Assembly: GCA_027452165.1 (NCBI GenBank)
Contig: DAIDGX010000008.1
Location: 1-64,000, forward strand
DNA length: 64,000 nucleotides
Origin: Vulcanimicrobiota bacterium
Lineage (GTDB): Bacteria; Vulcanimicrobiota; Vulcanimicrobiia; Vulcanimicrobiales; Vulcanimicrobiaceae
Direction of reading: 5' to 3'
Shown: in pieces, positions 1 through 17,407 of the stretch
Layout: every line of letters begins with the position of its first letter
How positions within the stretch are numbered: position 1 is the first letter of the stretch
Notes under the pieces: model-generated
Told to the model about the DNA's origin: nothing
Seen by the model: only the letters and a program-made list of their open reading frames with translations
Databases searched by the model: none
Position numbers and translations under genes: made by a program

Positions 1-893
1 CCGGCTTGGAGCAGCTTGCCCAGACCGCCCACGCCACGATCGAAGCCGCGAACGAGGTGCTCGAACTCTCCGGCTCGGCCGGTTCGAGTGCCGACGCCGC
101 GTCGGCGGCGATTCTGCAGGCCGACCGCACGAGCGAAGAGGCGGCCGACGTGATCGCGGAGCTCGTGAAGACGATGGAGTCGCTGCGCATGAGCTCGCTG
201 CAGATCGGCTCGATCACCGAAAAGATCGACGAGATCGCCGATCAAACCAACCTGCTCGCGCTCAACGCCGCGATCGAGGCTGCTCGCGCCGGTGAGCACG
301 GTCGCGGCTTTGCCGTCGTCGCCGACGAGATTCGCAAGCTCGCCGATTCGTCGGCCACCGCCACCAAAGAGATCGCATCGCTGATCCGCACCGTGCAGGA
401 CGAGACCAATCGCGCGGTCTCGGTGACGCGCCGCGGCAACGACGCCGTGGAGCTCGGCCGCGAGAAGACCGCGCTCGTCGCCGACGCGCTCTCGCGCATC
501 GTCGATAGCGTGAACATGGTGCGCGCGCGGATCGAGGCGGTCGTTTCGTCGCAGAAGGAGCAGAAGCGCGCGACCGATGCGCTCGTGGAATCGACGTTTT
601 TGGTGGAGCGCCTCACCGGCGACAACAACGAGATGGCGGTCTCGCTTGCTGCCCTGGCGGAGAACTTGGAGCAGTCCTCCGCCTCGGGCGCCGACGCCGT
701 GCGAAAAACGAACGAGAACGTCTCCGCCGTCACGCAGCGCGGCGAGCGCATCGTCGGCGCTTCGAGCGAACTGCTCGGACTCACCGGTTCCCTGCGCGGC
801 GAGGCGGAGCGCATCCGCGGCGCCGTCGCGGAGTTTACGGGCGACAAGGCCATCGGCGGCGGCGGCGACGAACGGACGGCCCTGCCGCGCTAG
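1..893 (+). CDS. Methyl-accepting chemotaxis protein, 3' part (5' end outside window)
   Basis: This is the C-terminal signalling part of a chemoreceptor, which controls CheA through CheW. The frame is open to the window edge, so the N-terminus and any sensor domain are missing. The conserved hairpin tip is clear at about residues 75-115 of the visible part, with [20 protein letters not shown] followed by [15 protein letters not shown]. Coiled-coil helices with alternating Ala, Glu and Ser flank it. No membrane segment is visible, but one could lie upstream. The next gene on this strand is the tmRNA. A second receptor lies at 12645-15302, so the region may hold several. The family is certain; the ligand cannot be judged. 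Confidence 0.93.
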
Positions 894-9959: not shown

Positions 9960-11901
9960 CCTCGTCGCGTGCGCCATGCTGCTCGCGACGGCGCACGCGT
10001 CGGCGAGCACGGCCACCTACCGTTTCGAGGGCCGCTCCCTAGCGTTCACGCACGTGTCGCACGCGGCCGGCGCCGCTGCGGTCGGGATCGACGATCCTGG
10101 GTTGCGCTCGCTGCTCGATCGGCTTGGCGCCGTGCTCACCTGGCATCCGGGCGAGCGCTACGTGTTGATCACGACCGCTCAGGCCGTGGTGATCAGTTTT
10201 TCGGTCGGCGATCGCAGCTACGACGTCGGTCCGTTGAGTGCCGACGCGAGCTTTGCTCCCTATTTGGTAGGAAGCGAAGTCTATCTGCCGTTTATCGATC
10301 TGATGCACGCGCTCTCGCTTGCTCCAACGCGGATGGGAGTCGATCGTGTGCTGCAGCGCGAGATCACGTCGATCGACGTGCGCGGCTCGGGAGATCAGGC
10401 GATTCTTGTCGCGCGCGGTGCGGGCTCGCTCGAAGCGCGTGTGGTGCGCGATGACGCGCGGCATGTTGAATACGAGTTTGCCGGTTTCGGATCGACGCTT
10501 GCGGGAACGCGTCCGGTCGGTAGCGGAGGCATTCGCTCGCTCTCGGTGCACGTCGCGGGTAGCGCGGCTAAGCCGGACACGTTTGTAACGCTCGAACTTG
10601 CGCCGGGCGCGCGTCACGACGCGCCGCATAGCAACAACGGCGATTTCGAGGTCGCGTTCGGGGGCGGCGGAAGTGCGCCGCCGCTACTCGCGAACGAAGG
10701 TAGCGCACCGACGATCGCCGAGGCCCCCGTGGCCGGGCCGCCCTTGGCGGCTTCGCAGCAGATCGCATCGCCCGTCTATCCGGGCGGCGAGCCGAGCGCA
10801 TCGCCACTGCCGGTGCCTTCCGGTGCAAACGCGGCGCAGGGCCCCGCGACGGTCGGTGCCGTGAGCGCGCAGAACACGAGCAACGGCGCGATGGTGACGA
10901 TTCCGGTGGCCGGCAACGCACAGTTCGCATGGCATCGCTTGCGTGCGCCCGACAATCGCTTTTGGATCGACATCTCGAATGCCAATCTTTCCGGCGGTCC
11001 GGTCGATCAAACCGAGGCCGATCCGCTGATCTCGATGCGCGTGCGTCAGAACGATCCGCAGACGGTTCGCGTCGCCCTCTCGCTCGTTGGAGCGCAGAGC
11101 ATCATCGTCACCCCGTCGGCGACCGGAATCACGATCGCCATCGGCAACGAGCAAGTCGCCGATGCGCCGCGGTTTGGGTCAGGTAGCGTCGGTACGCTTG
11201 TCTCGTCGAACGAGCCGCAGCCGCTCGTGACGCCCGTGCCGGCCGATATGTACGGCGAGAATGGTTCGGCGCAGGATTCGTCGTGGAAGTTCGGCGGAGG
11301 CAGCACCTACGTCCCGACCAATCCTCGCTTGATCGTGATCGATCCGGGCCATGGCGGGAGCGATCCCGGATCGGAACGCAACGGCGTTACCGAAGCCTCG
11401 CTCACGCTCGACATGGCCAAACGTTTGCAGGGGATCCTCGTGGCCCGCGGCTGGCAGGTGAAGATGACGCGCGAGACCGACGTGGATGTCTATCGGCCCA
11501 ACGACAGCGCCCACGACGAACTCCAGGCGCGCGATAACATCGCCAATGCATCCGGCGGGCTGCTGCTCGTGAGCATCCACGTGAACGCCTTTATCAACAG
11601 CGGCCCGTCAGGCACGACCACATACTACTCGAAACCGATCGACGTGCCGCTCGCGCAAACTGTCCAGAACGAACTCGCATCCACCCTCGGAACCAAGAAT
11701 GACGGCATCATCAAGAGCAAACTCTACGTGACGCTCCACGCGCACATGCCTGCGATCTTGATCGAGACCGCGTTTATTTCAAATCCCGACGACTTTGCTA
11801 AACTCACGTCACCCGACTGGCGTCAGAAGGTGGCGCTCGCGATCGCCGACGGCATCGACCAATACGCGCAACAACATCCGGTGCCGAGTCCCGCCCAGTG
11901 A
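9922..11901 (+). CDS. N-acetylmuramoyl-L-alanine amidase with N-terminal AMIN-like region
   Basis: The 659-aa enzyme cuts the amide between MurNAc and the stem peptide. The C-terminal Amidase_3 domain (about 470-655) holds IDPGHGGSDPGS, TEASLTLDMAK, SIHVNAF and the catalytic Glu in AILIETAFIS. The N-terminal half has a copper-amine-oxidase-N-like stretch and beta-rich AMIN-like segments that would localise it on the wall, joined by a Pro/Ala-rich linker. The TTG at 9922 is chosen: it follows GGGGGG by 5 nt and gives a signal peptide ending at AHASA. The ATG at 9886 would overlap the GerMN gene further and spoil the signal. murI follows with a GTGA overlap. Confidence 0.92.
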   Translation: MSSIRRFAARTFSLVACAMLLATAHASASTATYRFEGRSLAFTHVSHAAGAAAVGIDDPGLRSLLDRLGAVLTWHPGERYVLITTAQAVVISFSVGDRSYDVGPLSADASFAPYLVGSEVYLPFIDLMHALSLAPTRMGVDRVLQREITSIDVRGSGDQAILVARGAGSLEARVVRDDARHVEYEFAGFGSTLAGTRPVGSGGIRSLSVHVAGSAAKPDTFVTLELAPGARHDAPHSNNGDFEVAFGGGGSAPPLLANEGSAPTIAEAPVAGPPLAASQQIASPVYPGGEPSASPLPVPSGANAAQGPATVGAVSAQNTSNGAMVTIPVAGNAQFAWHRLRAPDNRFWIDISNANLSGGPVDQTEADPLISMRVRQNDPQTVRVALSLVGAQSIIVTPSATGITIAIGNEQVADAPRFGSGSVGTLVSSNEPQPLVTPVPADMYGENGSAQDSSWKFGGGSTYVPTNPRLIVIDPGHGGSDPGSERNGVTEASLTLDMAKRLQGILVARGWQVKMTRETDVDVYRPNDSAHDELQARDNIANASGGLLLVSIHVNAFINSGPSGTTTYYSKPIDVPLAQTVQNELASTLGTKNDGIIKSKLYVTLHAHMPAILIETAFISNPDDFAKLTSPDWRQKVALAIADGIDQYAQQHPVPSPAQ

Positions 11902-12677
11902 TCGGCCTCTTCGATTCGGGGCTCGGTGGGTTGACCGTCGTGCGGCGCGTGCGCGAGCGCTTGCCGCGAGCCGATCTGCTCTTTTTCGCCGACCAAGCAC
12001 ACGTGCCATACGGCGAGCGTGCGCCCGATGAGTTGGATCGGCTGATGCGCTCGAATGTGGCATGGCTCGATGCGCGCAACGTCGATGCGATCGTCGTCGC
12101 CTGCAATACGTCGTGCGCAGTCGCCGATGCGTATGGCTGGCCGCAAACGCACGCGGAGATATTCGATTTGATCGACTCGGCGACGATTGCGTTGCAACGC
12201 GCAAGCGCGCGACGCATCGGCGTGGTCGCCACTTCGGCAACGGTTCGCTCGGGCGCCTACGGACGACGCATTCGCAACGCGATCGCGGATGCCGAGGTGT
12301 GGGAGGTGGCCGCACCCGCGCTTGTGCCGCTCGTGGAAGCGGGCCGCATTACGGGCGATGAGCCGCGCGTCGCCGTCGCAGAGGTATGCGCGCAACTGCC
12401 TGACGACCTCGACGCCGTGGTGCTCGCGTGCACGCACTATCCGGTCCTGGCCGAGCATTTCGGCGGCGCGCTCGGAGTTGACGTTTTGCAGATCGATCCG
12501 GCGCTCATTCACGCGGAACGCGTGGCGGCGCTCATCGATCGCGAAGGCGGCGGCGAGGGCTCGGGGACGACCCGCTACGTGACCAACGGCGACGTGGCAC
12601 TCTTCCGGCGCAACGTCGCGAGCATCATGGGCGAGGCGCAGCCCCTAGTCGAAGAGCGCGCGACGCTGGCGTTCTAG
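11898..12677 (+). CDS. murI: Glutamate racemase
   Basis: Makes D-glutamate for peptidoglycan, in the cytosol. [16 protein letters not shown] is the classic N-terminus. The two catalytic cysteines sit in VVACNTSCA and [10 protein letters not shown], and [13 protein letters not shown] is typical. The start GTG at 11898 overlaps the amidase stop as GTGA, so the two are probably translationally coupled. The 3' end overlaps the convergent chemoreceptor gene by 33 nt. Length (259 aa) is normal. Confidence 0.96.
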
Positions 12678-15302
12678 TTCAACGGTGGCTCCAAGGGCTT
12701 CGCGGCTGTCGGCGGCGTGTGACGCGACGAGCTCGGCCATCTGCGAGTAGTCGCCGAACATCGCGTAGGCGCGCGCGGCTTCATCGCCTGCGGCTTCCTG
12801 AGCTTGTTCGAGCGTGCCTTGTGCCGTATCGGCGAAATGTTCGATGCGACCGAAGGCCTCTTGCGCGAGACGTGCCTGCCGTGCGCTCTGTTCGGCCTTG
12901 GAGACGCCGCTTTCGATCGCGACCGCGGCCGATTTTCCGCGTGCTTCGAGATCGCTCAGCACCTTGCGAATGCCGATCGTCGATGATTTGGTCTTGTCGG
13001 CAAGTCCACGAACCTCGCCTGCAACGACGTTAAAGCCCTTACCATGTTCGCCCGCGCGTGCTGCTTCGATGGCGGCGTTGAGCGCGAGCAGGTTGGTCTT
13101 ATCGGAGACCGAGCGCACGAGGTTGATGATCTCGAAGATCTGATGCATCGAACTTGCAAATTTCTCGAGGGCCGTGCGGCTCTGGACCGCCATCGACGAA
13201 AGGACGTTGATCGTGTCGATCAGCGAACTTACCGTATCGCGCATGACGCGAACCTGTGGCGAGACCGCCATGAAACGCTCGGTCAGCGCCTCGAAATCTT
13301 TCGCGAGCGTCTGGTTCGAGGTGCTGAGCGCTTGGGACTGAGCGGCAAGCTTGTTCAGGCTCGCGATTTGCGAACGCGACTGCGTGCCGATCGTATCGCC
13401 GGTGGCTCGTACCGCATTGACCGAGCGGTCCATCGCCTCGACGATGTCGTTCAGCGAGAAAGCGTGGACTGCCGCCTCCGGCGTCGCAAGGTTAAAGCGC
13501 GGGTGCCAGGCGTCGAGGTTGCGATTGAGCAGATGGCGATATACATCGCTCGGAAAGAGCGGCTCCATACGTTCCCATACGAAGCGCGCGGTCTTGACGA
13601 AGGCTTCGCGTTCATCGTCTTGGAGATCGACGATCTCGAGATGCTTGCGTAACTCGGCAATCGCGCCGAGTTCGTCTTCGGCCGCGATGCGACGGTGTAC
13701 CGCGGTCGCTTCGCGGAAGGCTTGCTCGAGGATCTCGCGATCTTCCGGCGGCAGCGAGCGCCAGCGCTCGACGTTCGCAAGCACGATCTGCGTGTTGTAC
13801 GTATGGTTGGTCAGCGTGAGAAAGCGCTGCACTTCGTAGAGCCGCGCTCCGACGATGTTTGCGAGCGGGTTCTCCTGCGCATCGACCTCATGCTGTTGTA
13901 GCGAGCGGTAGACGTCGTTGAAGGCGATGACGCGCGGCGAGGCGCCGAGCGCGTGCATGAGCGCCAGATAGACGACCGAATCTTGGATGCGCACGCGCAT
14001 GCGACGCATATCCTCGGGCCGATGGATGGGGCGCACCGAGTTCGTGAAGTGGCGCATCCCGTTCTCGAAGTATGCGATGCCGTGCAGCCCGAACGACTCG
14101 AAAGATGAGAGAATGTGCGTGCCGAGTGCGCCGTCGAGCAGCGCATGCGCGGCGTTCCGGTTTTTGAAGACGAATGGGAGGTCGAGCAGCTGGGCGAGCG
14201 GCAAAAGCGCGCCCGCAACGAACGTGGTGACGCTCACCATGTCGAGTTCGCCGGAGCGCACGCGCAAGAGCGCCTCTTGTTCGCTGCCGCCGGTAAACGG
14301 AATCTCGAGCTCCAGGCGGATGCGGCCCTTTGAAAGTTCGAGCGCGCGCTGGGCGACGTGCTCCCATGCGCGCGAGGGAGGGTAGCCGGGCGGAAGGAGC
14401 GTCGCGACCTTGATCGTCGTATGCTCGGCGACCGGTGCTTGGGTGCGCGCACGAGAGATGTAGGCGATTTCGGCGCCATAGTAAGCCAGACGCTGCGTTG
14501 CAAACGCCGATTCCAGCGCTTCGCGCCCCTGCGATGCGGCGACACTCGCGAGCGCGTCGGTCTCTTTGCGCATCTGGGCGGCGGCGTTGGAGTGTTCGCG
14601 CCCGGTCACGACCGCGCGGTCGATGCCAACCGAGAGGTCGGCCGCGAGTTCGGCGATCTCGGAGAGCGAGAGTCGTGCCATCTCGGCAAGCGGAGCGGAC
14701 TCCGCGGAGCGTTCGGCGTTGGCGCGTACGGCGCGGATGGTCGCTTCGGCCTCGCGTTGGATCTCGGTGACCAGGTTCTTGATCGTCGACGTGGAGTCGC
14801 TCGTCGTCTTGGCAAGGCGGCCCACCTCGCCGGCGACGACTCCGAAGCCCAGGCCGTGACGACCCGCACGCGCGGCTTCGATCGCGGCATTGAGGGCGAG
14901 CAACTGCGTTTCGTCGGAGACGTCCTCGACGAACTCGGTCATGCGCCCGATTTCGCTCATAAGGCGCCCGAAGTCGTCCATGGCATCGGCCGTACCGGCC
15001 GAGAGTTCGGCGAGTTGCTGGACCGAGGTGAGCAGCAATTCGATCACTTCGAACGAGTCGCCAAGATCGGCGGCGGCGGTGCGGGCCGCGGCCTGTGCGC
15101 TATGCAGGCGCTCCGCGGTTTCGCGCGATGCGACGGCAAGGGTATCGGCCGTATCGGAGAGCGCCACCATCAGGGTGGTCTGCTCTTGCGCCGTAGCGGC
15201 GATCGCTTCCGATGCGTGGCGCACCGCCTCGACCGCTGCCGAGATGCTCGCGTTGAAACGGTCGAATTGCGCATCGTGTTGATGCGCGACACCCCAAGCC
15301 AT
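12645..15302 (-). CDS. Soluble chemoreceptor with MCP-DctP-MCP architecture
   Basis: The 885-aa protein joins three parts. Residues about 25-285 are a first MCP signalling region, with its tip at 130-165 ([20 protein letters not shown]). Residues about 295-600 are a TRAP-type DctP solute-binding domain: [16 protein letters not shown], then [20 protein letters not shown], then [13 protein letters not shown]. Residues about 615-885 are a second MCP region, tip at 733-770 ([20 protein letters not shown]). No signal peptide or membrane helix is visible, so the binding domain should face the cytosol, unlike ordinary periplasmic DctP. The ATG at 15302 is chosen because residues from the earlier ATG (15440) are only the antisense of the response-regulator gene. 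It is divergent from that gene by 51 nt. No TRAP permease genes (DctQM) lie in the window. Confidence 0.92.
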
Positions 15303-15353: not shown

Positions 15354-16034
15354 ATGGCCTCTCCGGTGCGACTCCTGATCGTTGAAGACGACGAACGGCT
15401 CGCCGACGCGCTGCGTCGCGGCCTCACCGACGAGGGCCATGTGGTCGATTGTGCCGGCGACGGTATGCTCGCGCGCGACCTAGCACTCGATGACGCCTAC
15501 GATGCGATCGTGCTCGATCTGAACCTCCCGCGCGCCGACGGCCTCTCGGTGTTGCGCGCGGTGCGCGCGGCGGGTATCGCCACGCCGATCGTGATCGCAA
15601 CCTCCCGCGACGAGACCGAAGACGTGGTTGCCGGCCTCGACGCCGGCGCGGACGACTACGTGCGTAAGCCATTTGCCCTGCGCGAACTGCTGGCGCGACT
15701 GCGCTCGGTCACGCGCCGTGAGGCGCCGCCCGCCTCGACGCAACTGACGGTTGGGAACCTGAGGTTCGATCTCGCTACGCGTCAGGTGCGCCGCGGCACC
15801 CGCATCGTGCAGTTGACGGCACGCGAGCTTGCGTTTTTGGAATACTTCATGCGCAATGTGGGGATCGTCCTCACGCGCCCGATGATCGAGACGGCGCTTT
15901 GGGATCGCACGAGTGAAACCACCTCGAACGTCGTCGATGTGTACGTTCGACGCTTGCGTGTAAAGATTGATGCCGTGGGCGAGTCGCCGCTCTTTCATAC
16001 GGTGCGCGGCATCGGCTATCGGATGGGCCCGTGA
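15354..16034 (+). CDS. OmpR-family response regulator
   Basis: The 226-aa regulator has a receiver domain (about 5-118) with the acidic pair in IVEDDERL, the phospho-acceptor Asp in [14 protein letters not shown] and Lys in [12 protein letters not shown] winged-helix DNA-binding domain follows (about 130-225; [38 protein letters not shown]). The ATG at 15354 is the first that gives the normal N-terminus. The kinase gene follows with a GTGA overlap. The pair lies upstream of the PepSY and RND genes, so it probably controls them. Confidence 0.95.
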
Positions 16035-17407
16035 CGCTGCGCGCGCGCTTGGCGTGGTCGTACGGCGTTGCGTTCGCCGTGGCAGTGCTGCTCTTCGCGC
16101 TCGTCTCGCTTGCGTCGATCGACCGAGCCCTGCGCAGTTCGCTCGACGCGCGCCTCTCGACCGCAGCAGAAGCGGTCACGGCGCTTGCCGACGTGCACGC
16201 CGGTGCGATCGTTTTCGACGACGAAGATCGCTTGCAGATGGCCCAGGCGCTCGGCGGCGAGATGGAGGGTGTGGTTTTTGGGGCCGGTGACCGGCCACTC
16301 GTGCAGACGACGAGCCCGTTGCCCAGCGCGGTGATCGTGGCAGCGCGCGATGCTCGTACTGGGCTCGCGCGCGTGCGCTTACGCAGTGGCGTGCACGATT
16401 TGCGGGCGGCCGTCAGCACCGTGGATCGGAACGGCCGGACCTTCGGCGTCATCGTCGTTTGGGAAAGCAGCGACTTCATCGACGAATTCGATCGTGATGC
16501 CGCGATCGTGATGTTGGTTGCCGCGCTTGTGCTCGGCGCGGTCGTCGTGGTGCTCTCGTCGATGGTCGCTCGCCGCGCGCTTGCGCCGCTGGAGCGTTTC
16601 ACCGCGATTGCTACCGAAATCGAAGCCCACGATCTCTCGCGGCGTATCGGTCGCGGGGGTGTTGACGAACTTGGGCGTTTGGGATCGGCCTTCGATCGCA
16701 TGCTCGACCGGCTCGAAGCGGCGTTCGCTCGCCAGCGGCAGTTTACCGCGGATGCGTCGCACGAATTGCGCGCGCCGCTCGCGGTGATGCGAACCGAGAC
16801 CGACGTAGCGCTCGCAAAAGAGCGAAGTGCCGCCGAGTACCGCGCCGCGCTCGAGACGATCGCGGGCGAGGTCGAACGCATCGATACGCTCGTGGGCGCG
16901 CTGCTGGTGGCGGCGCGAGCGGACTCGGCGCGATTGCAGATCGAGCCGGTCGATGCTGGTGAGATTGCTCTGCTCACGGTACAACGCTTTGCGTCCGCCG
17001 CCGCCGCACGCGGCATCGCGATCAAGACCGACGCGGGCGATGAGGCCTTCGTGGAGGGCGATGCGCAGGCGCTCGATCGCGCGCTCGCCGCGATCCTCCA
17101 TAACGCGCTCGACCTCGCGCGTGAGTCGATCAACGTCGAAGTCCGGCGAATCGACGATCGTGTCGAGATCGCGGTGGTCGATGACGGGCCTGGGTTTTCG
17201 GACGAGGCTCTGGCGCACGGGACCGAGCGCTTTTGGCGCGGCGAATCGGCACGGCGGCGCGGCAGCACCGGACTCGGGCTCTCGATTGCCGATGCGATTG
17301 CGCGCGCCCATGGCGGGGCGGTGTATTTGACCAACGTCGCACCACATGGCGCTCGTGTAACGATCATCTTGCGTTCATCTCCGCGTCATCTCGATGGAGC
17401 ACGATAG
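16031..17407 (+). CDS. Membrane sensor histidine kinase
   Basis: The 458-aa kinase has two membrane helices (about 12-32 and 155-180) around a periplasmic sensor loop. A HAMP linker follows, then the H-box FTADASHELRAPLAVM, N-box AAILHNALDLARE, and the ATP-binding glycines VVDDGPGF and GSTGLGLSIADAIARAHGG. It should phosphorylate the regulator encoded just upstream. Start GTG at 16031 overlaps the regulator's TGA. The sensor loop resembles no domain I can name. The architecture is that of metal or antibiotic-responsive kinases such as CusS or QseC, consistent with the RND row downstream. Confidence 0.94.
   Translation: MTLRARLAWSYGVAFAVAVLLFALVSLASIDRALRSSLDARLSTAAEAVTALADVHAGAIVFDDEDRLQMAQALGGEMEGVVFGAGDRPLVQTTSPLPSAVIVAARDARTGLARVRLRSGVHDLRAAVSTVDRNGRTFGVIVVWESSDFIDEFDRDAAIVMLVAALVLGAVVVVLSSMVARRALAPLERFTAIATEIEAHDLSRRIGRGGVDELGRLGSAFDRMLDRLEAAFARQRQFTADASHELRAPLAVMRTETDVALAKERSAAEYRAALETIAGEVERIDTLVGALLVAARADSARLQIEPVDAGEIALLTVQRFASAAAARGIAIKTDAGDEAFVEGDAQALDRALAAILHNALDLARESINVEVRRIDDRVEIAVVDDGPGFSDEALAHGTERFWRGESARRRGSTGLGLSIADAIARAHGGAVYLTNVAPHGARVTIILRSSPRHLDGAR

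Follow-up and report, generated by a model that had tools for sequence, protein, structure and literature searches.

What kind of receptor is formed when a transporter-type solute-binding domain lies between two chemoreceptor signalling domains in one soluble chain? This question is raised by a gene on the minus strand (12645..15302) of a 64,000-nucleotide stretch of DNA, the window analyzed here, from a soil bacterium of the uncultured and almost unstudied phylum Eremiobacterota. The original prediction, which did not give the strand, described an 885-aa soluble protein with two MCP tips, a DctP domain between them and no standard family to which this order could be assigned. The question has a wider reach as the subunits of ordinary receptor dimers are identical and yet hold different jobs in the chemosensory array, which makes their roles hard to separate by mutation.

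Domain layout, distribution and locus

The 885-aa receptor (P0001) is real, and both MCP tips and the DctP domain lie where they had been placed. In a whole-genome scan with domains scored separately, the protein has two MCPsignal (PF00015) stretches of 101 and 99 bits, both exceeding the curated cut-off of 34.6 and identifying it as an MCP. Pfam further matches DctP (PF03480) to residues 302-579 with an E-value of 4.5e-71, and the NCBIfam models TIGR00787 and NF037995 are also matched. The AlphaFold2 model, based on a 29-sequence alignment (mean pLDDT 84.1, pTM 0.63), begins with two 141-residue helices (residues 5-145 and 147-287) that make up the N-terminal MCP hairpin (residues 5-287; 14442..15290, minus strand, as are all parts of the receptor). 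These are followed by a mixed alpha/beta DctP domain (residues 296-592; 13527..14417), a flexible linker (residues 593-616; 13455..13526) with pLDDT below 50 at about residues 603-614, and a long helix with a second tip that forms the C-terminal MCP hairpin (residues 617-884; 12651..13454).

Comparison of the middle domain with 4p47 reveals a full-length TRAP solute-binding fold, with a Foldseek TM score of 0.89 and a VIA-align Z score of 38.3 (rmsd 1.8 over 305 residues). The DctP-like character of the middle part, a claim that could have failed at this point, is thus agreed upon by the AlphaFold2 model, Foldseek and VIA-align; the VIA-align matches cover the DctP region only, and the MCP folds are assigned from sequence and from the predicted helices. 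R438 (13989..13991) corresponds to an Arg in all five PDB alignments shown and does not vary among the 29 aligned sequences; it occupies the position of the carboxylate-clamping Arg of TRAP solute-binding proteins. Both the fold and the ligand Arg of this protein class are present, but its periplasmic export is not. No membrane helix was found in the receptor, where the peak 19-residue hydrophobicity window reaches 1.8 and falls within the DctP core, and a signal peptide is excluded by the orthologue loci L010, L012, L013, L015 and L018, in which the reading frames extend upstream of the aligned N-terminus by about one residue at most.

The complete MCP-DctP-MCP architecture occurs in 23 of 100 genomes of one Ca. 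Eremiobacterota family (the host included), spread over 11 genera, and in two further genomes of that family the receptor is split by contig ends. The 22 orthologues share 53-90% identity with the receptor and contain no internal stops. An assembly or annotation artefact fusing two genes, the error that could have undone the original prediction, is refuted by these full-length copies in independent assemblies, and as we found no evidence in its favour we rate its chance as practically nil. Within the phylum, 149 sampled genomes yielded no complete copy outside this family. In a tblastn search over 72,556 plasmid records, 80% coverage of the query was not reached anywhere; the matches listed extend to at most 39% and fall in the DctP region. 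No record of DctP-MCP fusions was found in open-licence papers; the domain order is confirmed and conserved, and we did not find it described in the literature that could be searched.

The receptor gene is flanked by a convergent glutamate racemase gene (murI; 11898..12677, plus strand), which serves as a locus marker, and by a divergent gene for an OmpR-type response regulator (15354..16034, plus strand), which starts about 51 bases from the receptor start and is followed by its kinase at 16031-17407; the identities of murI and the regulator were assigned from sequence. The 3' ends of the receptor gene and murI overlap by 33 bases (12645-12677). The OmpR-type regulator adjoins the receptor in the nearest relatives only. 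Outside genus g12, most loci have amidase and murI genes adjacent to the receptor or close to it, a pattern indicative of vertical inheritance. No partner gene emerged from the receptor neighbourhoods, which hold murI, the amidase, the OmpR-type two-component pair (in near relatives), a peptidase M3 and an ECH gene, and no consensus sigma-70 promoter was found upstream of the receptor. Another MCP, cut by the contig start, lies at positions 3-890 (plus strand) of the window, and its canonical tip is identical to that of a further MCP of the genome (L006).

Divergent tips on register-matched hairpins

The tips were numbered as in Tsr by alignment to N381, and a strict asymmetry emerged. In the N-terminal tip (residues 130-163; 14814..14915), position 376 is Gln or Glu, position 394 is Leu and position 404 is Gly in all 23 orthologues, while position 391 is non-acidic in 22 of them; in the receptor itself N376, R394 and R404 are replaced by Q133, L151 and G161, respectively. 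The C-terminal tip (residues 734-767; 13002..13103), in contrast, carries Asn at 376, an acidic residue (Glu or Asp) at 391, Lys or Arg at 394 and Arg at 404 without exception (23/23 each). The canonical residues at 376, 394 and 404 are present in each of 41 comparison MCPs, a set made up of 35 tips of other MCPs from these genomes plus six of the shorter MCP-DctP proteins. Neither tip has lost E385, R388 or E402, and the first two of these are invariant in both.

The altered positions coincide with known contacts. In E. coli, the outer subunit contacts CheW through E18-R394, R40-E402 and D107-R404 (PMC6954272), R394 switches between CheA P3 and P4 (PMC6746300), and the trimer is locked by E385-R388' (PMC8144572). 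In the host CheW, alignment places Glu at position 107, the partner of R404, in place of Asp and hence still acidic, and Ile at position 40 with an Arg adjacent. Judged by these residues, a canonical CheW/CheA-binding tip appears to be present at the C-terminal end and absent from the N-terminal one. The fixed N-tip change suggests that the two stalks have separate, built-in roles. Signalling through two MCP stalks, as originally proposed, thus holds insofar as two domains exist, but their equivalence does not, as the N tip is without the CheW/CheA contact residues in every orthologue.

Apart from the tips, the two hairpins are closely matched. Their best alignment lies at an offset of 604 residues in all five segments and is gapless across the orthologues, and a core heptad phase is common to both arms of both hairpins over 27 layers. 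Orthologue insertions and deletions are confined to the DctP borders (residues 287-290 and 604-613) and otherwise to single residues at 338 and 646. Across the 23 orthologues, 44% of columns are invariant in the N hairpin versus 28% in the C hairpin, and 72% in the N tip versus 64% in the C tip; the greater conservation of the N hairpin indicates that the N tip is under selection rather than in decay. A layer-volume test of packing between the N and C hairpins gave a correlation of r = +0.73 between them, which is what shared descent predicts and therefore does not discriminate. The hairpins also differ in how they are joined to DctP, as the N hairpin runs as helix to residue 287 and connects by a short, near-constant link, whereas the C hairpin connects through the disordered, length-variable linker of 24 residues. 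The predicted coupling of DctP is therefore rigid towards the N hairpin and loose towards the C hairpin. A methylation-like motif is conserved solely at residue 39, in the N hairpin, and a CheR is present in the genome.

Shorter MCP-DctP proteins that lack a second hairpin are encoded in the same bacterial family (L062, L063 and L067-L070); genome G093 has one alongside the long form, and an MCP-DctP fragment was found in a second family (G130). These two-domain proteins have the same N-terminal order, are likewise soluble and share 30-35% identity overall, with hairpins near those of the double form in the tree, but they lack the C-terminal hairpin and their tip is canonical. In the hairpin tree the N and C hairpins are sisters (97/92). 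This grouping is suggestive of an internal duplication, which we nevertheless do not adopt as a settled origin as topologies pairing the N hairpin with MCP-DctP proteins (p-AU 0.52) or the C hairpin with other MCPs (p-AU 0.49) pass the AU test.

Several further arrangements were observed in relatives. A second double-MCP family of about 900 aa is represented by L114 (3914-6685, minus strand), L115 (3260-5968, plus) and L116 (3551-6259, minus), in which two tandem MCP domains precede a conserved C-terminal region; Pfam names MCPsignal alone in L114, and both tips deviate, the R388 position being His as in EAAHAGEAG. In genome G093, the neighbouring plus-strand frames L117 2499-4901 and 4905-5720 (801 and 272 aa) encode two degenerate MCP domains each. 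The MCP-DctP receptor L069 (4465-6432, minus strand) belongs to a genome, G087, that is 86% complete and in which no CheW was found, reflecting either an assembly gap or an arrayless receptor.

Cellular setting and candidate ligand

The host genome, which is 95% complete, encodes six MCP proteins (the receptor included), one CheR and one adjacent CheA-CheW pair, which settles the presence of CheA and CheW and is followed by CheC-like, PilZ, FlhA, FlhB and FliR genes. Its CheW repertoire consists of one free single-domain CheW and the CheW domain of CheA, with no concatenated triple CheW (CheW3) in the genome, and CheW was present in all 13 receptor-bearing genomes tested. Neither a second DctP domain nor a DctM permease (PF06808) was found in the 95% complete genome, indicating that the DctP domain is a sensor and not part of a transporter. 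Without an export signal in the protein, a cytosolic organic acid is the simplest and most likely candidate for the ligand. The cytosolic, carboxylate-type ligand first proposed is accordingly probable in its location, while the choice between a C4-dicarboxylate and a keto acid cannot be made from sequence, in which the carboxylate-clamp Arg alone is conserved. A periplasmic transporter-type binding domain would thus have been put to use in the cytosol of a host that does not encode the transporter.

Assembly of the receptor and relation to known systems

Precedent for two MCP hairpins in one chain comes from Mowery and colleagues, who fused two Tsr subunits head to tail and obtained near-normal function with linkers of at least 22 residues (PMC4692393). 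The same study describes how the subunits of a dimer differ in place, one lying at the trimer axis and the other peripherally by CheA/CheW, and notes natural soluble single-chain MCPs whose function is not known (PMC4692393). The receptor has two register-matched hairpins and an adequate joint, in the form of the 24-residue flexible linker plus DctP, and is in this sense a single-chain MCP.

We favour a cytosolic receptor in which DctP reads an intracellular carboxylate-type metabolite while the two hairpins pair within one chain and report to the CheA/CheW array, a proposal that we hold to be about evenly balanced between right and wrong; the intramolecular receptor pair offered as one option by the original prediction is supported to this extent. 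We infer that sensing in vivo would be cytosolic and that the two hairpins most likely pack in register as one four-helix bundle, with the DctP domain capping the end away from the tip in place of the Tsr~Tsr linker. The N hairpin, which is without CheW/CheA contacts and keeps the trimer contacts, would be the inner one at the trimer-of-dimers axis, and the C hairpin, whose tip is canonical, would lie on the outside and make the contacts to CheW/CheA. With a rigid joint to the N hairpin and a loose one to the C hairpin, DctP closing on its ligand should act on the N hairpin first, pulling it and altering the packing of the bundle; the resulting output would pass to the only CheA/CheW array of the cell, that of flagellar chemotaxis. 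That the receptor is naturally asymmetric, with a gene-internal fusion fixing which hairpin lies at the axis and which binds CheW/CheA and with a cytosolic solute-binding domain serving both to join and to sense, we put forward at just short of an even chance.

Several observations weigh against this single-chain pairing. The AlphaFold2 output came without inter-domain distances and its pTM is only 0.63, which bears on the pairing of the N and C hairpins. The E402-R404 pair has also been reported as an inter-receptor salt bridge that stabilizes trimers, and the N tip has lost the R404 of this pair. A separate MCP origin of the C hairpin is not rejected by the tree (p-AU of about 0.5), and the methylation-like motif is conserved in the N hairpin alone.

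The main rival is suggested by DosM of Vibrio cholerae, a soluble chain with two signalling domains that forms a rod bridging two baseplates (PMC7534058). By analogy, opposed hairpins of the receptor would each pair with their counterpart in a second chain, and the dimer, with DctP at its center, would span the two CheA/CheW baseplates of a cytoplasmic sandwich array. A soluble chain with two signalling domains and hairpins of matching length agrees with such a rod, but docking to a second baseplate would require CheW/CheA contacts that are missing from the N tip, and between the hairpins lie a globular domain and a disordered linker instead of a continuous helix. Furthermore, 98% of DosM homologues are without a sensor domain, and the F9 class to which they belong is marked by the triple CheW and almost never includes a sensor (PMC9321776), whereas the host has one single-domain CheW and not the CheW3 that is the F9 signature. 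We consider the rod unlikely and do not claim membership of the DosM/F9 class.

We also doubt that the receptor is a conventional homodimer, in which two chains would form two side-by-side bundles by like-with-like pairing, the C bundle alone signalling and the N bundle acting as a regulatory or structural stalk. Relatives with the N-type MCP-DctP layout alone are presumably homodimers, and the core patterns of the hairpins are correlated by descent, both of which accord with this arrangement; it leaves the fixed, position-specific N-tip changes and the stronger conservation of the N hairpin unexplained. The lost contact residues of the N tip, together with the usual sensor-then-hairpin order of the C half, could alternatively mean that the N hairpin survives from an MCP-DctP ancestor in a state of decay and that DctP and the C hairpin act as an ordinary receptor. 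This reading is very improbable, as the N tip is more invariant than the C tip across 23 species, the whole N hairpin is the more conserved, and decay would not fix the same Leu and Gly everywhere.

Set beside known systems, the receptor shares with the single-chain MCPs of Rhodospirillum centenum and a few other bacteria, and with the engineered Tsr~Tsr, two covalently joined MCP hairpins, and the range of working linker lengths in Tsr~Tsr includes its own (PMC4692393). It differs from Tsr~Tsr, and may differ from the R. centenum proteins, in being joined by a 300-residue ligand-binding domain and in its fixedly diverged tips, and it has no membrane part. From the TRAP solute-binding proteins (DctP/SiaP), whose full fold and ligand Arg it shares, it is set apart by the absence of export, by a genome without DctM and by MCP hairpins on both sides. 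Like DosM it is a soluble chain with two MCP signalling domains, but DosM is a two-ended rod of CheW3 sandwich arrays and nearly always sensorless, whereas the receptor has a DctP sensor, a single-domain CheW in its genome and one non-canonical tip. The view that no standard family has this order therefore holds for the exact order but not for the broader type, which has precedents in double-signalling-domain receptors such as DosM and in single-chain MCPs, both natural and engineered (PMC7534058, PMC4692393). Tsr~Tsr was built to separate subunit roles and was limited by subunit swapping (PMC4692393); a natural protein in which the two tips differ in a fixed manner would already provide such a system, and its tip residues name the positions to test. 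The receptor is best classed as a variant of the single-chain MCP and the double-signalling-domain receptor; the fixed difference between its tips was unexpected and makes the array question testable.
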